Shown piece by piece: positions 6,867 to 22,075 of a stretch of DNA of 64,000 nt. A model generated the notes under the pieces. That model made no database searches and was not told where the DNA came from. It saw nothing but the letters and a program-made list of their open reading frames with translations. The DNA is taken from the NCBI GenBank assembly GCA_015039465.1, contig MU130363.1:1-64000 (forward strand), in the 5' to 3' direction. How positions within the stretch are numbered: position 1 is the first letter of the stretch; each line of letters starts with the position of its first letter. Source of the DNA: Phlegmacium glaucopus. Taxonomy: Eukaryota > Basidiomycota > Agaricomycetes > Agaricales > Cortinariaceae. Both the position numbers and the translations under genes were made by a program.

Positions 6867-7593
6867 ATTCTAAGGATCTAAGAAGTGGTTACAGTGAAAA
6901 GTCGCGAGTCTTTTGACTCTTAAGGCAGTGGTAGCTGAATGTACAAGTCAAGCGGCCAAGGCAGTGACAAGGCGAGAAGAGAAAAAGAAAAAGCAAAAAG
7001 GAGAAAAAGGGATGTCAAGGAGATGAACCGCAAAGGCAAGAAACAGGAAAGCCCTTGGCATGACCCTGAGGTTCATTCTAAATGTCAAACTTCAGCTCAT
7101 GTTGTCCTCATCAACAAGTCCAGAAATGAGCCAATTGCATTACGTAGCATTATTTTTAGTGTACCCTGCCACCAGCTGCCACCTCTCAAACCCCATCCCC
7201 AGGCCTCAGTGGTTGAAGGTCTGTAGAATGACCAAACTCGGGGCTGCTGGAGTTTGGTTTGCTTGTGATACAATTCAACCGCAAAACTCTCAATTGGGAC
7301 AAGTGACTCACGGTATCATCCGGCAAAGTTACAACACAGCCTAATTATTCTCTTATCATACTCCATAAAGCAGATAAAGCCATACGCTGGCGCATGATAA
7401 CCCTCAGACGCGCCTCCACGTTTCATTGTGCAGTGAACTTGTGCATCGCTTCTCAATTGAAAGATCTGTCGTTCTTCACCGAAAATCTTACCCTTCCCAG
7501 TGGTACTTTCTTCGACTTCGAATTCGAATATTAAACGTTGAGTAATATCACCAAAATTTTCGTGACATCGCGTCATTTATGTAATAATGATTA
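6867..7593. other. Intergenic, no supported gene
   Basis: This is the upstream region of the membrane-protein gene. It contains an A/G-rich stretch around 6960-7050. A minus-strand open frame at 7316-7576 has no recognisable motif. Confidence 0.4.
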
Positions 7594-7872
7594 CGGCTAC
7601 ATGCAAAAACCTAGGAACCCCTCGAAAATCAGTTTGTGCGCCTCTGTTTGTACAAACAACCTACTTTTGGTAGCTTGAACGCGCGTTGTCTCCAAGCATA
7701 ATGACACATGTTGTGGAGTTAGGGCACTAGAACCCTTCAACCGCCCCAAGCTCCCTCCATCACTACCGAAACAGGACTTTTAGCATGTTAGGATACCAAA
7801 AACGGTTGTTTATATAAACATTGGCGCATGAGCTGAAATTTCGAGGGGTTCCTAGGTTTTTGCATGTAGCTG
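7594..7872. mobile_element. MITE, Tc1/mariner-like, TA target duplication
   Basis: A 279-bp non-coding element has terminal inverted repeats beginning CGGCTACATGCAAAAACC on the left and CAGCTACATGCAAAAACC on the right-end complement. The arms match at about 33 of 34 positions and then continue with weaker pairing to a TGCGC core. Both ends abut the dinucleotide TA (7592-7593 and 7873-7874), the target duplication of Tc1/mariner-type elements. There is no transposase frame, so it is a non-autonomous element. Confidence 0.85.
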
Positions 7873-8519
7873 TAATTAGCTTCTCATGATATCGTAGTTA
7901 AAACTTGCAACAGCAGGTCTCAACGTTTTTCCAAATCACACCGTAATAAGCGACATTGATTGAGATAGGTCTCTAAGGAAGAAGCAAGTACATAAACAAA
8001 AAAAAAGAAGGCCTTTCAGAACCCAGATTATAGTTTTAATATGTAAATATCATATATGGTCGATCAATCAATGTGTCGCCTTCCACAGTAATTTATAAAT
8101 CCAGATGGTTGACGCGAAGGAAAAGTCGCAAGTAACGGAAGAGGGGGAAAACAGGGAACACAAGCACAGACGGAGAGTCTAAATTTTAAAGATAGAGGTA
8201 TAGGGTATATTGTGTGCGTGGGACCGTGTTTGTAGATTTCATGATAATAATGTGTAAATTTCGTTTTAGATGATCGTGGTGATAGTGGTGATAAATGACA
8301 GTGATAGTGAGTGTGGCATACTGGATGAGCAGAAACGCATCATCGCAGAATCAGGGGGAGACAGGCGGCAAGTGTAAACTTCTAATCAAACGGTTCATAT
8401 GAAGGACAGTCTGACTCTGTTGACAGTGAGTTTAGGACGAAGAGATCCATTGTAGGTCCCAGACGGGATAAACTTGAATGGGCCGAACGAATGTACCGAA
8501 AAGATTCCTGGGCCCGCTA
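7873..8519. other. Intergenic, AT-rich
   Basis: AT-rich sequence downstream of the minus-strand hypothetical gene, probably including its 3' UTR. A short run of GTGAT-type repeats occurs around 8275-8320. No gene was recognised. Confidence 0.4.
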
Positions 8520-10497: not shown

Positions 10498-13400
10498 CTA
10501 GAACACCGTAACGCCATTTTGAGTTCCCGCATATTGTGATTTCATGTCGTCCAAATCACCAGCATCGTCCTGGCTCTTGTAATCGTACTGAGATAAACTT
10601 CCGAGGTCACTTTGTCCAGTGACTGACGCAGAGCCAAACGAGGTCCTGCGTCGGAGGCGGTCGCTTTGCGAGTAAGTCAGACTGGGACCACTGCCGCCTA
10701 CGACGCTGCCGTTATCAGTCACACTGGGACCGGCATCTTGAGAAACGATCGAGGAGGCATAACTGTACGTGCTGCGTTTAGCTCCATTGGCTCCTCGAGG
10801 AATTCCTGAGCCGAAAGGACCAGGCGTATTGAACATGGGTAAACCCGAAGAGTAGGTCGCTTGAGAGCGGAGCGATTGGACGTCAGATGGAATGTAACCA
10901 ATAGCATCATGTGTGCGATAGTAACTCGGATCGAAGCGGCTGGGGGTACCTGACCTACGGCTTAGCGCTAAGGCATGTCGTTAGTAAACAACTCATAATA
11001 AATTGAAGGGACGTACGATCAGCAGACATAGGTCCTGCAGTGGATGGCAGGTAATCACGAGCATTCGTCTCGTGCCGACGGAATGGTTCCATCGATTTGA
11101 CGAGAGAACGACGAGGCTTGCTAAACTGGATCATGCTAGGTTGCAAATTATTCAAAGGTCCTTCAACAAGGTTGTTTTTTTCCTTGTAATGAGTCAAGAG
11201 GTAATGCCAAAGGGGATGCTAAGAAAGGAAGGAAAATCAGTACTGAAACTACGAGAAGCAGAGTAACCAAAAAAACAGACCTTGCTCAGGACTTTAGGGT
11301 TTCCAAGAATAACAACACCATACTTGGCACGAGTGAGAGCGACATTCAAACGTCTCGGGTCATTCAGGAACCCAATACCCTGGTGTTCATTACTTCGAAC
11401 ACAGCTGAGAATGATATAATCCTTCTCTCGTCCTTGGAAAGCATCGACACTAGCCACCTCGATCTCCTTGTAAAGATCCTTCTTAAGAGAACCATTGAAC
11501 TGCATATAATTAACGATATACGATCGCTGGCCTTCATATGGCGTAACAACACCAATCTGATTAGGCATCACACCAGATTTGAAGAATTTCGTGACGATCT
11601 TTTCCACATTCGATGCCTCGGTCCTGTTTAAGAAGGATGTTCCACTGCTAGAAATCTCCTCCTGGCCCAAATTCTGATAGAAGAACATGGGAGTATCGGG
11701 GACGGGCCAAGGGAAATCAACGTTCTTCCTCAAACGCTCAGGAGCAGTGACACCGTTTTGCAAGGTGCCTTCGTAGAACATGTTGGATGGGAACTCGGAC
11801 AGACAAGGATGCATACGGTATTGGACTTGGAGGCGAATGGGTCTGTTGCCAAGCACGACGAGACGTTCGAAAAGTGATTGTGTGAGACCTGCACGAGCAG
11901 CTTTCTTGTTCATGATGACAGGACCAAGTTGCTAATGACAGAGATGAGTATGGCATCAAGAATGAGGAAAGTGTCCAGGTTACCTGGTGGTCTCCGACTA
12001 AAACAACCTGTTTACACCCAAGAACTAGCGGAATCATACATTCTAGATGGAAATTTTGAGTGAGCACAACTAGATAGAGAGTGGACAGACAGTCATACCT
12101 GGCTCAGCTGCCTGAGTAGCCTCATCGATCAAAACGGTCCTAAACTTCAACTTGCTCAACCTCGGATCACCCGCTCCAACACAAGTACAACAAATCACAT
12201 CTGCCGCCAACAAAATCTCCTTCTCACATTGCCGAATCAAAGTCTTATACTTCCTCTCGTCATTGCTACTCAATTCTCCTTGCTCATTCTTCAACATGAT
12301 CAACTTCTGCAACTCGACATGCGTGGTACTATTCGCAACTTGTTGGTGAAGAGTGAGGAAGGCGACGCTTGAATCGAGAGCTTCTCGAGATTTGGCAGTC
12401 AAGCGGACAACTTTGAGTCCGGTAATATGAATTTTCTCTGTAAGTTGATCGACTGCGACGTTGGACGGAGCGCATACAAGGACTTGTCCCGGATTCATTT
12501 TGGCAAGATGATAGACAATCGACGCCGACGTCACGGTTTTACCCGTTCCTGGAGGTCCTTGAATCAGGCTGATGGGCTTTTGGAGTACGCTTTTGACAGC
12601 AAACATCTGCGAGTGATTGAGTTCAGGAAGACCAGGTGCTGAGAAACGCTTCGGCATTTGAGTACGGAGAGACTGGGGCTCAAGTTCATGTCCAAGAAGT
12701 TTGTGGTACTACGAAGGAAGCAAAAGGATAAGTATATATGCGCTGTATTGAACACGCATTACTCACAATATAACCACTGACACTCTTTTCGTCAACAGCA
12801 AAAGTCTTCATTGCAAGTTGCATCCTATCGAAGCTAGTGGACTTCCAGACAAAGTCTGCAGCGAAGTTATGTGTGCATTCGGATGGCACACCTTCGGTCC
12901 TTCGCAACTCTAGCCCAATTTCATCAGAGACATCTGCAAATGCGTGAATATATATAAAATCAAAGCCAGAGATCAGAAACTCACTGTTGGGAATCTTGAT
13001 AACATGCCCAACGCCCTCCCAGGCCTTATGCAGTTCTCCTTGATACCTCAATCTGAGCTCATCTCCAACGGCCAACCTCACTTCTCCACTTTCCAATTTA
13101 GGAAGACAGAACCAAGCAACTCGCTTTTGATTCAAACCAAGATCCCATCTAACAGTGATGTCCGTCTGGGTCTGGCTTTCCTTCAGCCTTTTATCGTAGT
13201 CCGCTTCGATCTTAACCAGAGGGCCAAAAATGTTTTGGTACTGGGAGGCGTCTTTGTAGCGCAACAAAATAGATTGAGGTTCATCATCGACACCTGGCTT
13301 CTGAAGATCTTCGAGAGTAGCATTCGCATTATCACGCCACAGATCTTCAAGGCGATTGATCTGAGCAAAGGAAATTTGACGAGAACGCAGCTGCTCTGTT

Positions 13401-14172
13401 TCGCTGGGTGAGGCAACCAACCACGTTAAGAAAGAGCGATCATCTATGAGAGGAGCCCAAAGTGATGAATTCCAGGATATATCTTTCGAAATTGCCGCGC
13501 AAGGTTGGCTGACGAAGGATGCATTAGTAAGCGAAGTTAAGATTCGAACGAGAACTACACAAACTCACCGGCAAAGCAAGACGACGACCGTGTCACTTTT
13601 AGCTGGAATGAATCCAAGCATGAAAACATTCTTGCTGCCACAGTTGTAACATTCCGGAGTGGTTTCGCCAAGAGCACTCTCTGCGTGCAAGATGACTTCC
13701 TTATGTTTGGCTCTAACGAGATGATTTACGATATGGGAAGCCGATGTGTTCCCTCGAGAGTTGCAAAACCACTTGGAACATATAAGGCATTTAACAACCG
13801 AAGCTGGTGAATGGATGCCACAGTAACTAAAAAACCACATCAATAAAATTGTCAGATTTAATCTGGAAAAAATGGCGCTACGCACCTGCAAGCATGGGGC
13901 GGCAAATCAAGAACGCCGTCATCTTTTAGATCATCCAAGACTGCATCAAAATCTTCGTCGAGGCCATTACGTGCCTGCTGGTGCTGGTGGTGATTCGTAT
14001 GTTCGTGGGTCACCGAAGAAGCGCCGTTATATTCTGAAAGTGAATGACTGGAAAGATCTACTGAGGTACCATCATGAGTACTGGCGGTGTAAACAGAAGA
14101 GTTGTCGTCTACAACTCCCAAGCCACCGTAAGAAGAAGCGGAATCGTATTGAAAATTGTCAAAGGAATCCAT
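10498..14172 (-). CDS. upf1: RNA helicase UPF1 (NAM7), nonsense-mediated decay
   Basis: ATP-dependent 5'-3' RNA helicase, central to nonsense-mediated mRNA decay in the cytoplasm. There are nine exons: 14172-13886, 13826-13569, 13508-12985, 12933-12767, 12708-12099, 12042-11984, 11931-11281, 11218-11017 and 10967-10498. They encode 1,075 residues, within the normal UPF1 range. The Cys/His-rich UPF2-binding domain starts near residue 93 ([14 protein letters not shown], later [14 protein letters not shown]). The SF1 helicase core follows: Walker A GPPGTGKT at about 463-470, Walker [11 protein letters not shown], then [31 protein letters not shown] and LNVALTRAK. The C-terminal tail is Ser/Gln/Tyr-rich with SQ dipeptides ([16 protein letters not shown]), typical of phosphorylated UPF1 tails. 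The start at [10 protein letters not shown] matches a usual UPF1 N-terminus; a Met 14 codons upstream is less likely. A chimeric paralog lies head to head. Confidence 0.95.
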
Positions 14173-14393
14173 GTTGTTGGGCAAGTTCAAGTTGTATACC
14201 GGTGCAGTTAACAAATTATCGGTACCGTCCTGCTGACTCAGCGAGCATCACAGCGCCGGGCCATGAATATTTTGCTCATTGCTCAAGCACCATTGTGTTG
14301 GATGAAATCATGTATGTATAAGGATAGATCTTCTTAGCCTTTCACTGTATAACGACCTATCTTCGGTTTCTCACGAAGATACAAATCAACACC
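14173..14393. promoter_or_regulatory. Divergent promoter region between UPF1 copies
   Basis: Only 221 bp separate the two start codons, so both genes must share or interleave their promoters. The right half is not pure promoter. It still aligns with UPF1 exon 1 (for example TATAACGAC and TCTTCGGT blocks at 14350-14373), so the second copy is expressed, if at all, from sequence that was once coding. I cannot assign a TATA box with confidence. Confidence 0.5.
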
Positions 14394-17300
14394 ATGGTCG
14401 ACAAGGAATTTGATACCGTCTCGGATGATGAAAGCGTTCTTGATCTGCCGCCCCATGCTTGCAGGTGCGCAGTAACGTTTTATCCAGTTATAACCAACAA
14501 TATATCGATGTGATTTTTTAGTTACTGTGGCATCCATTCACCAGCCTCCGTTGTTAAATGTCTTATATGTTCCAAGTGGTTTTGCAACTCTCGAGGGAAT
14601 ACATCGGCTTCCCATATCGTAAATCATCTCGTTAGAGCCAAACACAAGCAAGTCATCTTGCATGCAGATAGTGCTCTTGGCGAAACCACTCCGGAATGTT
14701 ACAACTGTGGCAGCAAGAATGTTTTCATGCTTGGATTCATTCCAGCTAAGAGTGACACGGTCGTCGTCTTGCTTTGCCGGTGAGTTGGTGTAGTTCTTGT
14801 TCGAATCTTAACTTACCTTACTAATTCGTCTTTCGTTAGCCAACCTTGCGCGGTGATTTCGAAAGACATCTCCTGGAATTCATCACTTTGGGCTCCTCTC
14901 ATAGCTGACCGCTCTTTCTTAACGTGGTTGGTTGCCTCGCCCAGCGAAACAGAGCAGCTGCGTTCTCGTCAAATTTCCTTTGCTCAGATCAATCGCCTTG
15001 AAGATCTGTGGCGTGATAATGCGAATGCTACTCTCGAAGATCTTCAGAAGCCAGGTGTCGATGATGAACCTCAATCTATTTTGTTGCGCTACAAAGACGC
15101 CTACCAGTACCAAAACATTTTTGGCCCTCTCGTTAAGATCGAAGCGGACTACGATAAAAGGCTGAAGGAAAGCCAGACCCAGACGGACATCACTGTTAGA
15201 TGGGATCTTGGTTTGAATCAAAAGCGAGTTGCTTGGTTCTGTCTTCCTAAATTGGAAAGTGGAGAAGTGAGGTTGGCCGTTGGAGATGAGCTCAGGTTGA
15301 GGTATCAAGGAGAATTGCATAAGGCCTGGGAAGGTGTTGGGCATATTATCAAAGTTCCCAACAGTGAGCCTCTGATCTCCGGCTTCGAACGTTTTTTATT
15401 CACACATTTGCTTTGTAGATGTCTCTGATGAAATTGGGTTAGCGTTGCAAAGGACCGAAGGTGTGCCATCCGAATGCACACATAACTTCGCTGCAGACTT
15501 TGTCTGGAAGTCCACTAGCTTCGATAGGATGCAACTTGCAATGAAGACTTTTGCTGTTGACGAAAAGAGTGTCAGTGGTTACATTGTGAGTAATACATGT
15601 TCAATACAGCGCATATATACTTATCCTTTTGCTTCCTTCGTAGTACCACAAACTTCTTGGACATGAACTTGAGCCCCAGTCTCTCCGCACTCAAATGCCG
15701 AAGAGTTTCTCAGCGCCTGGTCTTCCTGAACTCAATCACTCGCAGACATTTGCTGTCAAAATCGTACTCCAAAAGCCCATCAGCCTGATTCAAGGACCTC
15801 CAGGAACGGGTAAAACCGTGACGTCGGCGTCGATTGTCTATCATCTTGCCAAAATGAATCCGGGACAAGTCCTTGTATGCGCTCCGTCCAACGTCGCAGT
15901 CGATCAACTTACAGAGAAAATTCATATTACCGGACTCAAAGTCGTCCGCTTGACTGCCAAATCTCGAGAAGCTCTCGATTCAAGCGTCGCCTTCCTCACT
16001 CTTCACCAACAAGTTGCGAATAGTACCACGCATGTCGAGTTGCAGAAGTTGATCATGTTGAAGAATGAGCAAGGAGAATTGAGTAGCAATGATGAGAGGA
16101 AGTATAAGACTTTGATTCGGCAGTGTGAGAAGGAGATTTTGTTGGCGGCAGATGTGATTTGTTGTACTTGTGTTGGAGCGGGTGATCCGAGGTTGAGCAA
16201 GTTGAAGTTTAGGACTGTTTTAATTGATGAGGCTACTCAGGCAACTGAGCCAGGTGTGACTTTATCCTATTTCCAGTTTCCGTCCGGTTGTGTTGACTTT
16301 GATTTTGTTAGAATGTATGATTCCACTTGTTCTCGGGTGTAAACAGGCTGTTTTAGTTGGAGATCACCAGGTAACCCGGGCACTATTCCCATTCTTGACA
16401 TCATACCCATTTCTCTCATTAGCAACTTGGTCCTGTCATCATGAACAAGAAAGCTGCTCGTGCAGGTCTCACACAATCACTTTTCGAACGCCTCGTCGTG
16501 CTCGGCAACAGACCCATTCGCCTCCAAGTCCAATACCGTATGCATCCTTGTCTGTCCGAGTTCCCATCCAACATGTTCTACGAAGGCACCTTGCAAAACG
16601 GTGTCATTGCTCCTGAGCGTTTGAGGAAGAACGTTGATTTCCCTTGGCCTGTCCCCGATACTCCCATGTTCTTCTATCAGAATTTGGGCCAGGAGGAGAT
16701 TTCTAGCAGTGGAACATCCTTCTTAAACAGGACCGAGGCATCGAATGTGGAAAAGATCGTCACGAAATTCTTCAAATCTGGTGTGATGCCTAATCAGATT
16801 GGTGTTGTTACGCCATATGAAGGCCAGCGATCGTATATCGTTAATTATATGCAGTTCAATGGTTCTCTTAAGAAGGATCTTTACAAGGAGATCGAGGTGG
16901 CTAGTGTCGATGCTTTCCAAGGACGAGAGAAGGATTATATCATTCTCAGCTGTGTTCGAAGTAATGAACACCAGGGTATTGGGTTCCTGAATGACCCGAG
17001 ACGTTTGAATGTCGCTCTCACTCGTGCCAAGTACGGTGTTGTTATTCTTGGAAATCCTAAAGTCCTGAGCAAGGTGTGTTTTTTTGGTTACTCTGCTCGT
17101 AGCTTCAGTACTGATCTTCCTTCCTTCCCTCCTTAGCATCCTCTTTGGCACTACCTCTTGACTCATTACAGGGAGAAAAACAATCTTGTTGAAGGACCTT
17201 TGAATAATTTGCAACCTAGCATGATCCAGTTTAGCAAGCCTTATCGTTCTCTCGACAAATTGATTAAACCATTCCGTCGAGATGCTCGTGAATACCTGCC

Positions 17301-18656
17301 GTTCACTCCAGAACCCGTATCTGCTGATCGTATGTCCCTTTTTTTTACTTTACTACGAGTTTTTACTAACGGCCTGCCTTAGCTTTAAGCCGTGGGTCAG
17401 GTACTCCCAGCGGCTTCGATCCGAGTTACTATCGCACACATGATGCTATTGGCTCCTCGATTGTTTCTCAAGATGCCGGTCCCAGTGTGACTGATAACGG
17501 CAGTGTCGTAGGCGGCAGTGGTCCCAGTCTGACTTACTCGCAAAGCGACCGTCTCCGACGCAGGACCTCGTTTGGCTCTGCGTCAGTCACTAGACAAAGT
17601 GACCTCGGAAGTTTATCTCAGTACGATTACAAGAGCCAGGACGATGCTGGTGATTTGGACGACATGAAATCACAATATGCGGACCGTCTCCGACGCAGGA
17701 CCTCGTTTGGCTCTGCGTCGGTCACTGGACAAAGTGACCTTGGAAGTTTATCTCAGTACGATTACAAGAGCCAGGACGATGCTGGTGATTTCCCTTCTGC
17801 CCCAGCAAATACGGAAGTTATCGGCGCGATGGGTGCCCTTAACGAGGAGATCTACCAGACGTGTGTACAGCTTGTTGGAACTCTGGAGCGTACGAGTACA
17901 CACTCGAACAAACACAAGTTGCAATCCCAGAAGGTATTAGGTGACCACCTCACTGCGATGATGGAAGATCAGGCGACCAGGACGACGCCTGGTTATAATC
18001 GCCGTCTCCTGCAGGCTGTCCTTGAGGTGTTCATGGTCCATTGGTGTTCGTCAATCATCGAGGCCTTCTATCCCAGTCAGGAATCTTTTGCCGATTTATT
18101 GGATCGGCTCTCGGCCAAGACTGCAAGGACTTCAGGGGCAGCCATTCGTGGGAAGCTGATTGAAGTCGTTGAATCCGGTACACCTTACACTGATAATATC
18201 AATTTTCACGCATGGGTGCTTGATATTACCCAAGAACTTGAATGGTTTTTGATGATTGCGGGACTGAGAATAAAGGCTTGGCGTACTCATCTCCTCTTCA
18301 CGAAGACTCTGGCCCTCGTCAAGGTAGCTTACGATCTAAGAACTGCCATGGCGGAACAGGATTTCCAGGGAGGTCTAGAAGTTGTTATCGTATCGCCAGA
18401 CACGCCTTTCCATGCAAAATGGATGACGGACGCTGATGCCGATTCCAGGAAAGGTGATACGGATTGGCATTCACGTCTGGAATTTGTCGCTGGTACGACT
18501 GGGATAGGTTTGCACCGCAAACTGTCGGAAAGAGTGGATGGACATTTACAGAATAGGATTGACGTGGAGCTGAAGCCAAAGGTTATCCTGACTCGGACTT
18601 TCGGCGTAAAGGTTAAACCGTCTTTCACTAGATCCATCGCAAGCGGATACCGTTGA
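14394..18656 (+). CDS. Chimeric UPF1-like helicase fused to neighbour's C-terminal domain
   Basis: Nine exons: 14394-14464, 14522-14779, 14840-15363, 15419-15585, 15644-16253, 16312-16370, 16423-17073, 17137-17329 and 17383-18656. They encode an open frame of 1,268 residues. Residues 1-980 are UPF1. The Cys/His domain, Walker A (GPPGTGKT, about 391-398), [25 protein letters not shown] and LNVALTRAK are all retained. Differences from UPF1: the N-terminus is cut to about 20 residues before the Cys/His domain, 47 residues are missing between DAIG and SSIVSQ, and a 45-residue tail unit is tandemly repeated (900-944, then 945-980). From residue 981 ([12 protein letters not shown]) to the end the protein is homologous to the C-terminal domain of the gene at 19233-22075, about three quarters identical by eye in its first half. 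ATPase activity is plausible; any role in decay is unknown. Confidence 0.85.
17547..17789 (+). repeat. 135-bp tandem duplication at fusion joint
   Basis: Unit 1 spans 17547-17681; unit 2 starts at 17682 and runs 108 bp until the UPF1 homology ends. The units encode the [15 protein letters not shown]...DAGD tail segment and differ at very few positions (for example Arg versus Gly after SASVT). UPF1 itself has this segment once. The second unit stops exactly where homology to the neighbouring gene begins. Confidence 0.92.
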
Positions 18657-19232
18657 ACATGGAATATGTTCAAAGCGTTGGGCGCTGGCCTTCGAGTTCA
18701 AGATTATTGGGCATTTAATATCATAATAGTAGCAAAGAATACTAATAGCTAACTGTCTATTAATCAATTATACCTAACCGTTGTAACGGCACTTTGCCAC
18801 CGTCTTTGTATGCTTAAATTTAATCTATTTATTGCTTTGATCCTGGTTAGCTATCGATGGATGAAGCTCATTGTAGGACGTATATACAAATGTTGTTACA
18901 TAAATAAAATGCTGTGCGTACAACTAACCGTAAGGTGTCAACGTTTCAACATTTACACAGCATTCGCCAAAATAGGGGTCTCCGAAAGATTTGCGGGGGG
19001 AGTCCAATGTATGGATTGATATATAGTAGTACTACAAGTCCTTGAAATCGAACAAATTAACCATATACAAAATCAGTGCGGGTTCATATACATAAGGGGA
19101 AAGGAAAAATTAGTCTGTCTACCCAGTCAGTGGCAAAATGCAATCAAACCTAGTAGCAACCTGGAGGTATATCTCGATATTCCCTCTGGTGTGACAATAT
19201 ATATATATGCGATCTAATGAAAAAAAAAACGG
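18657..19232. other. Tail-to-tail intergenic region
   Basis: The 3' ends of the chimeric gene and of the coiled-coil gene meet here. It contains an (AT)n stretch near 19197-19208 and a poly-A run next to the stop of the minus-strand gene. No gene was recognised. Confidence 0.45.
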
Positions 19233-22075
19233 TTAATCTTTCAAATCCCGAGTCAGGATGACTTTGGGCTTCAACTCCATGTCTATCTTAGGCTGAACGT
19301 GTCCATCGACGTTTTCCGATGTTTTCCGTTGTAGACCTATCCCACTCGTACCAGCGACAAAATCAACATGTAATTGATCTATATCACCTTTCCTATTACC
19401 ATGGGCATCCACCATCCATTTCTCTTGGAAAGGTGTGTATGCTGCTACGACGACAACTTCTAGATCTCCAGAGATGTCCTTTTCCGCCATGGCTGTCCTT
19501 AGATTGTAGGCTCCTTTGACAAGAGCTAGAGTTTTCGTGGAGAAAAGTGGAGAACGCTGAGGTTTCATTCTCAGTCCTGCAATCATCAAAAGCCATCCAA
19601 GTTCTTTGATAATGTCAATCACCCATTCGTTAAATTTGAGAGAATCGGTGTAAGGTGTACTGGGTTCAACGATCTGAATCTGCTTCCCACAAATGACTGT
19701 CGATCCTATGAATCAAAATGAGATGACAATCCGCACCGAAAATGTAGAAAGTCTTACCTGTGGTCGTCCTTGACTGTGCCGAGAGCTGAACCAACAAATC
19801 GGCAAAAGATTCCTGATTGGGATAGAAGGCCTCAATGATTGACGAACACCAATGGACCATGAACACTTCAAGGACAGCCTGCATGAGCAGCATATTATAA
19901 CCCAACTTCTTGGTCGCTTGATCTTCCAACATTGTAGTGAGGTATTCACCTAATACCTTTTGGGCTCGCGGCTTGTGTTTGTTCGAATGTGTAGTCGTAC
20001 GCTCCAAACCTTCAACAAGCTGCACACACGCTTGGTAAATCTCTTCGTTAAGGGCACTCATCGCTCCAATAACGTCCGCACTTGCTGGGGCAGAAGTGAC
20101 CCCGAGCACTCCTCTTCGTTTCGGTTGGCCATAGGCAGCTTCCTGACGCGACTCAAGTTTATGACGTGTCAGGTGGTCTAAACATCGAATATGTCTTTCC
20201 GCTACGCTGAGTTTATGTCGCATCGAATCCAACTTGTCCTGCCATCCCTTCTTCTCCTTAGTCAAGTTAGCCAACGATGTAGTAGCAACCTTCAGTTGAG
20301 TTTTGATTTGAGTCGATGAAGTATCCTGTGCATGCTTGATTTCGTCCAGTGAAATCTTGAGTTGTGATATTGAACGCTCTTGGGACTGATTCTCATTGGT
20401 CAGACGTTTGTTTTCCGCTTTTACGTCCCGCAATTCAGCAAGAGCTTTATCAAGCTGAGTTTGAAGATCTTGTTGCCGTTCTATATATGCCTGCCTCAGC
20501 AACACTGTCACGTCTGACGACTGTTCTTCTTGAAGCGTGAGTAGTTGGGGTTTGGGAGCAGTACTCGTTCGAATCGGTTGAGGCAGCCGTTGTGACGATA
20601 ATTCAGGGCTTACATTGGATTGAGTTATTTGAGTGCGTGATTGCATCCTCCTCATCTTTCCCAATTCTTCCATTTTCCGAACCAAGACGTCGTCAGGAGA
20701 GAGGGTAGAAGGACCATTGGTTGGCAATGAGTCGCTCGATTCGCCGATAGACTGCAACGCTCGCGAAGGCCTCCATGGGGTTTTTGTTTCTTCGACTCTT
20801 TCAGCAGCTCGAGGCGTTGCCAAGGCCAGAAGGAATGGACTCATGCTATTCGAACTCGGCTTTCGTCTCGTTTCTGGCCTTTTTTTATCAGCCTTGGGAA
20901 AAGTGGGATCGCTGTCAGGAAAAGTTTCCTTTGCCAATTCTACGGGCGGGCTCTGGATGCTTGAAGAGGTAGGTGACTCATCCGAAGGGAATTCCCCGGG
21001 GATGCTAGTTTCCCTTTTGATAATTGTCTCTGTAAATCTCTTGGACGAGTTAATCGAAGTCTCAGGGAGAGGTTGTGTAGTTGGAGTAGGGTCTGAACGT
21101 TCCTTCGTTTCCGAAGTGTGCTGATCGTTGGGGTCGTTGTCGTTAATGACTGTTGGCGAGGTTGTCTCAATGACTGAATCGTGGTAAGGCGGCAATTCAC
21201 GAGATTGTTGAGACACTTGTGTTACAGGGGGTTGTGTTAATTCTATCGGCCTGTCACAGGCTTCAGAATTTGATGGGGATTCGGACATTTCTTCCACTAA
21301 AGGCGTACTCGGGAAAGCATTATCGTTCGTTGTGCTGGAAGAAGGGGCATACAAAGAGGTCAACAAGTCGACGGTTGGGTCGGGCTTATCCAGCGGTCCA
21401 AAATCGTTCACGTTATTGTTGGCGCCAAAGTTAGATTTCAATAGTGCAGACACACTCATAAACCCTTTGTGATTTGGATGAGGTGGAAGAGTTTTAAGAT
21501 TCTGTTGAGAAGGTTCAGGGATGATTCGTTCTGAATGAGTAGCGGGAGGAAGGATCTGGGTGGATGGAATACTTGAATCGTTGGGAGAGCTAGAGGTTCT
21601 GTTCTTTGACCTGTTCAATAGGGCGGAAACCTGTAAAAACTCTTTGGTCAAGGGATTTACAGGGATAGGACCTCTCGAGATGGGACTTGATTTGGGAGAT
21701 TCAGGTTGCTGGCCATTCTCTATCGTAGGCAAAGGTTCGTTTGAAGAGACGATAGCGTTTTGTTGAATGCTCTGAAATAGGCTTCCCCTCTGTAGTGGGG
21801 TGACGGCTTCGTTGTCATTGGGATCGACAAGGGGGATAGCAGGTAGATCGTCTCTGGTTTGTACGGATGCGGCCAAAGATGTTCTGTGTCTTGATGATAG
21901 ATCGTCCGAAGTGGTTCGAGATGATGACGTGTTCGACCGCAGACTACCTGATGCTACGACTATTATTTCTGTGTAAGAATGAATGTTATTTGTATGAAAA
22001 GGGAGACATTGAGAACTTACCATCTGGTTCATCGAAATCAGCCTTGAATTTACTGATGGCTTTTCGGATGAACAT
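19233..22075 (-). CDS. Disordered/coiled-coil protein with unknown C-terminal domain
   Basis: Three exons (22075-22021, 21968-19758 and 19696-19233) encode 909 residues. The first 18 codons (MFIRKAISKFKADFDEPD) sit on their own exon. Residues to about 500 are disordered, rich in Ser, Pro and Thr, with two similar short motifs (KEFLQVSALLNRSK and KGFMSVSALLKSNF). A coiled coil follows at about 510-635 (LDKALAELRDVKAENKRLTN). The last 270 residues form a compact domain ([52 protein letters not shown], ending [12 protein letters not shown]). I do not recognise this domain. Its copy ends the chimeric UPF1 gene, which lacks the 61-nt intron at 19697-19757. Coiled coil plus tail suggests a scaffold, which is inference only. 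Confidence 0.82.

Follow-up and report, generated by a model that had tools for sequence, protein, structure and literature searches.

UPF1 is among the most conserved RNA helicases of eukaryotes, and the locus described here in Phlegmacium (Cortinarius) glaucopus (Cortinariaceae) raises the question of how one of two UPF1 copies came to end in a domain related to the C-terminus of the gene next door, and whether the resulting protein is real, derived and functional. The window, i.e. the whole stretch of 64,000 nucleotides that we analysed, carries the UPF1 genes as a head-to-head pair with start codons 221 bp apart. Copy 1 (10498..14172, minus strand) is canonical, with nine exons (14172-13886, 13826-13569, 13508-12985, 12933-12767, 12708-12099, 12042-11984, 11931-11281, 11218-11017 and 10967-10498) whose GT..AG junctions were matched between the copies. 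Copy 2 with its fused C-terminal domain (14394..18656, plus strand) likewise comprises nine exons, encoding 1268 residues according to gene model, translation and Pfam, and its eight introns, all starting with GT and ending with AG, correspond to those of copy 1. The next gene (19233..22075, minus strand; exons 22075-22021, 21968-19758 and 19705-19233) is modelled as a 912-residue coiled-coil protein with the same C-terminal domain. An earlier note on this DNA had placed this gene, as the parent, tail to tail with the fusion at 576 bp; the stop codons are indeed separated by 576 bp and the coordinates were correct. Elsewhere in the window, two 38-bp inverted repeats (7590-7627 and 7839-7876), 97% complementary, face each other across 211 bp. 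The explanation we favour, and consider rather probable, is that copy 2 is a real lineage-specific chimeric gene, a UPF1 duplicate capped by a domain, for which we infer both an origin and a tethering function.

The joint lies within exon 9 of copy 2 (17383-18656), which is an open reading frame along its entire length. UPF1 homology ends at residue 980, residue 981 is the first non-UPF1 residue, and from there extends a 288-residue domain (residues 981-1268; 17791..18656, plus strand; intron-less) that we characterised by homology arms, dN/dS, conservation and AlphaFold2. Its product is 67% identical to the C-terminus of the neighbour (180/269), and the DNA matches in four ungapped arms, namely 17791-17982 with 19908-20099 (84%), 17991-18136 with 19757-19902 (85%), 18139-18438 with 19400-19699 (78%) and 18468-18601 with 19243-19376 (77%), with gaps between the arms that differ in length by 3, 3 and 6 bases once the intron of the neighbour is excluded. 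The open exon and the four arms thus bear out the claim that UPF1 passes into the neighbour's domain at residue 981, in one exon and with no stop. In a search of the whole assembly (259 contigs, 60.5 Mb), the neighbour was the top match of the fused piece besides itself (E 4e-55 and 4e-48), followed by distant places on contig C164 (E 7e-11 or worse).

Just upstream of the domain, the SQ-rich UPF1 tail contains an in-frame tandem repeat (17547..17791, plus strand; 135 bp, 1.8 copies), the second copy of which stops at the joint, with 3 differences in 110 positions (97%). Assemblers tend to fail in settings of this kind, where a 97% tandem repeat ends within a near-palindromic UPF1 pair, and the joint might have been made by the assembler, with copy 2 truly ending otherwise. 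We regard this as highly improbable: differences between the UPF1 copies extend over their whole length, the least similar intron being 66% identical, which marks copy 2 as a sequence in its own right; no near-identical second occurrence of the domain piece turned up in the assembly; and the reading frame is preserved over the joint. Passages of PMC7550596 describe JGI assembly methods in general, not the one used for this genome. A public protein of Phlegmacium glaucopus, BYT27DRAFT_6529929 (P0001), matches residues 546-1268 at 100% identity over its full 723 aa, across the joint as well, in a model that begins only in exon 6 and lacks exons 1-5; the assembly behind it is probably not independent of the present one.

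With the joint taken as real, is the architecture derived? Two protein searches yielded 110 distinct proteins, among which 67 have the domain only (one of them, P0027, being the neighbour of the window), 42 have UPF1 only and a single one, P0001, has both helicase and domain, a count to be read with the understanding that the searches admit lengths of 0.55-1.75x the query (about 697-2219, 235-749 and 77-245 aa in searches 1 to 3), limits that favour N-terminally cut UPF1 models and that, together with uneven gene prediction in eukaryotes, could cause a fusion in another species to be missed. In a search with the tail of copy 2, covering the best 120 of 205 matches (119 of them new), each of the 119 UPF1 tails examined terminates in some version of GVTVF (111 in VF and 8 in close variants). 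The presence of both parts in 1/110 proteins and the ordinary ends of 119/119 examined tails led us to reject the domain as an ancestral part of UPF1 and indicate that its occurrence in UPF1 is derived, in line with the earlier view of a newly assembled helicase-plus-domain architecture; the search for the joint elsewhere, which had been proposed as a check, led back to P0001 alone among the 110 proteins. Within titles and abstract openings, we found in the literature neither a UPF1 fusion nor a duplicated UPF1 in mushrooms, and as far as the protein and literature searches reach, this architecture is new. As to the public models, P0001 and P0064 both begin at MIPLVLG, within the helicase and not at the true start, so that UPF1 appears N-terminally cut in these annotations.

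The proteins that share the C-terminal domain with the fusion are of the neighbour type, exemplified in Agaricales by B0H34DRAFT_857099 (P0024, Crassisporium funariophilum), with the nearer relatives being 47-76% identical over the 288 residues. In these proteins the domain is preceded by a coiled-coil region and not by a helicase, and the intron missing from the fusion is retained in the majority of those seen; in the fusion, UPF1 rather than a coiled coil precedes the domain.

What precedes the domain in copy 2 is an altered UPF1. Like UPF1 proper, a superfamily 1 RNA helicase, it has the UPF2-interacting zinc-binding domain (PF09416, E 6e-16) and the 1B domain (PF18141, E 1.7e-25), both in the region of exon 3, as well as the two helicase domains (PF13086, E 1e-38; PF13087, E 9e-62) and the exon layout of copy 1; all eight helicase and zinc-binding motif strings checked are intact in both copies. 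In contrast to UPF1, copy 2 has a short new N-terminus, a tail with 47 residues deleted and a doubled SQ-rich segment, and it has exchanged the conserved C-terminus for the 288-residue domain. At the N-terminal end, alignment detects the out-of-frame, decayed remains of copy 2 exon 1 in the 221-bp spacer (14173..14393, unstranded): the original frame is lost, with the frame of copy 1 running into a stop in the spacer, and the ATG at 14394 is the sole possible start, there being an in-frame stop at 14325 and no ATG between. This spacer between divergent genes is probably also their shared promoter region, overlapping the decayed exon. At the other end, copy 1 has the ordinary C-terminus and copy 2 ends without a version of GVTVF; in the absence of that conserved end, we class copy 2 with derived paralogues of UPF1 and do not count it as UPF1 proper.

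The two copies are sisters (SH-aLRT 99) in a tree with 21 relatives, built on the last part of the helicase and the tail, with end branches of 0 for copy 1 and 0.13 for copy 2. Of the 301 columns with at least 95% conservation, 12 are altered in copy 2 and 3 in copy 1. Copy 2 bears nearly all of the UPF1 change seen, and copy 1 is ordinary. For the pair as a whole, dS is 0.10 and dN/dS is 0.235, with the last UPF1 blocks of copy 2 at 0.45 and 0.77.

Where, then, did the domain come from? The neighbour has a 52-bp intron (19706..19757, minus strand; read 19757-19706) that is missing from the fused piece and whose position is kept in relatives and in paralogues on contig C164. At least five distant paralogues of the domain, 27-36% identical, lie on that contig (about 107.9-158.8 kb, L004-L008), and the four that were read (L004-L007) all have SGK followed directly by intron sequence. 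Among 66 domain relatives, 10 match along the full length and 56 break off within residues 100-145; 37 of the latter end in GK, which is what the 5' splice site reads as. Over the first exon of the domain, P0020 does not differ from P0004, yet it continues across that exon on a 1,305-base contig, which we infer is probably a transcript. An intron position common to the C164 paralogues and the relatives makes the intron ancestral to the family, and the fused piece, being 5'-truncated and intron-less, would be either an RNA-derived copy or one that lost its intron later, two histories that would look alike. We found no poly(A) run in 18601-18760, and the piece is too old for such marks to be expected. 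Had the piece been inserted into the UPF1 exon, the UPF1 3' end would be expected to remain after the domain; it was not found, the best match of copy 1 3' sequence beyond the fused piece having an E of 0.42, so that neither feature marks an RNA-mediated insertion. Similarity beyond the stop codon of the neighbour was rejected, as it did not exceed that of shuffled sequences (p = 0.23).

A recent inverted copy of the neighbour, as first proposed, fits these data only in part. The closest relative of the domain in the assembly does lie next door, as the E values given above attest; on the other hand, the intron is missing, and the domain is at a dS of 0.42 vs. 0.10 for the UPF1 pair, which does not agree with a fresh copy simply donated by the neighbour. 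Phylogeny of the domain, which had been suggested as a further check, gave two answers: trees of the whole domain unite fusion and neighbour (93/91 in a 12-row tree, 89/90 in a 9-row tree), and a tree of the first exon (65 rows) pairs it with P0025, a protein from another source (94/74). We therefore weighed a variant of the origin part of our explanation, in which an intron-less or full paralogue of the neighbour already stood tail to tail with it and a younger inverted UPF1 duplication overwrote the 5' part of this paralogue, landing in frame by chance, so that the neighbour was never the direct donor. This variant, to which we give a somewhat less than even chance, draws on the first-exon tree, on the low divergence of the tail repeat (3/110) and on four-fold sites, which differ at 20/87 positions in the domain vs. 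25/410 in UPF1 (p = 8e-6). The UPF1 introns speak against it, with 73/437 differences that exceed those at the UPF1 four-fold sites (p = 1e-6) and are indistinguishable from those of the domain (p = 0.17); with the introns about as diverged as the domain, a single event may account for both. The pairing of fusion and neighbour in the whole-domain trees also counts against the variant, and no second copy of the upstream part of the neighbour, and hence of the paralogue, was found in the assembly. In addition, divergence of the UPF1 pair is patchy, with introns 66 to 97% identical (heterogeneity p = 5e-4) and exons 0.9 to 12.7% different (p = 4e-12), a pattern that fits gene conversion between the inverted arms, which would mask the age of the pair, or uneven constraint; the four-fold sites, taken by themselves, show no such heterogeneity (p = 0.40 and 0.50) and lend no support to conversion, which qualifies this last objection. 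Direct copying from the neighbour and capture of an older paralogue are thus both alive.

On our favoured explanation, the domain would be a diverged, 5'-truncated and intron-less paralogue of the C-terminus of the neighbour, made by way of spliced RNA or deprived of its intron at a later stage, and the UPF1 tail, with its 135-bp repeat of template-switch-like appearance, would have been joined to it during or after the inverse duplication of UPF1. The jingwei gene of Drosophila is reportedly a chimera of this general type, made by duplication and RNA-mediated capture. The two cases are alike in that a duplicate was joined in frame to part of a gene, the captured part lacks an intron and genes of the parental type persist. 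They differ in that here a core helicase of RNA surveillance was the recipient, a C-terminal piece was captured, the nearest genomic relative lies 576 bp off in inverted orientation and the RNA intermediate is putative.

Whether the fused protein is of use to its host can be approached from constraint on the domain. Comparison with the neighbour (Nei-Gojobori, 500 bootstraps) gave a dS of 0.417, a dN of 0.195 and a dN/dS of 0.467 (95% 0.314-0.682), a pairwise value that spans pre-fusion time as well as the branch of the neighbour and hence falls short of proving that the fused protein is under selection. In a first-exon conservation profile from 63 relatives, the fusion deviates from the majority at 1/25 columns conserved at 98% or more, 3/22 at 90-98%, 10/48 at 70-90% and 15/17 below 70%, the corresponding counts for the neighbour being 0, 0, 15 and 11. 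Of 83 columns that do not vary among seven relatives of full length, 12 have a different letter in the fusion and 4 in the neighbour; together with the dN/dS of 0.45 and 0.77 in the last UPF1 blocks of copy 2, these counts make relaxed constraint visible. By these comparisons, the fused piece has changed as coding sequence, under constraint weaker than that on the neighbour and with pre-fusion time included. This weaker constraint, the faster change of copy 2 (branch 0.13 vs. 0) and the loss of its N-terminus and conserved C-terminus would all be expected if the joint were real while copy 2, in its fused part or as a whole, was a decaying or dispensable passenger with no function of its own. 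We think this unlikely, in view of 1268 codons without a stop, nine exons all with GT..AG introns, the dN/dS of 0.235 for the UPF1 pair and the upper bound of 0.682 for the domain; moreover, in a neutral simulation that allowed substitutions only, just 0.7% of 20,000 copies remained open at 0.2 substitutions per site.

As for a function of the chimeric gene, family searches detected both UPF2 and UPF3 in this genome, so that the UPF2-interacting domain of copy 2 has its usual partner. The fused domain has no Pfam family and no clear structural or fold match; its AlphaFold2 model (pLDDT 81.7, pTM 0.78) predicts a bundle of helices and, after it, a small beta part. The domain usually forms the end of proteins that carry a predicted coiled-coil-like region, so the most economical reading would be a protein-protein tether, a step that carries most of the uncertainty. 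We surmise, as the least certain part of our explanation, that the duplicate, standing beside an ordinary UPF1, may act as an RNA helicase still able to meet UPF2, and that this helicase, whose SQ-rich tail is shorter, doubled in part and capped by the domain, may be tethered to whatever the coiled-coil protein of the neighbour binds or assembles into.

The UPF1 tails deserve a comment of their own. All 119 Agaricomycete tails examined (P0111-P0229) have a dense S/TQ cluster, with at least 4 S/TQ in the last 85 residues and a mean of 5.4 vs. 1.6 in shuffled tails; the counterpart in the window is the tail of copy 1 (10498-10967, minus strand). SMG1 is reported absent from Basidiomycota, and loss of the terminal S/TQ cluster is said to go with loss of SMG1 (PMC5709506), which makes a conserved cluster unexpected. 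Our SMG1 family search is uninformative on this point, as it matched none of the 14 control genomes either. The conserved cluster suggests that another kinase or role may be involved.

A bolder proposal is that the second UPF1 has been neofunctionalised as a new effector of RNA surveillance, an active helicase that the captured Agaricales domain tethers to the coiled-coil assembly of the neighbour, and was built locally via spliced RNA. We offer it tentatively and consider it doubtful; if true, one Phlegmacium lineage would have an RNA decay branch that other fungi lack. The chimera is known from one gene in one species, at the level of the genome. The last residues of UPF1 are nearly fixed in Agaricomycetes (119/119 examined), yet this duplicate has both of its ends remodelled and a predicted folded domain added, and a stretch of about 12 kb also contains the ordinary copy and the closest genomic relative of the domain. 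The locus may thus serve as a natural experiment in partner change by a surveillance helicase, and as a legible case of the local birth of a chimeric gene in a fungus.
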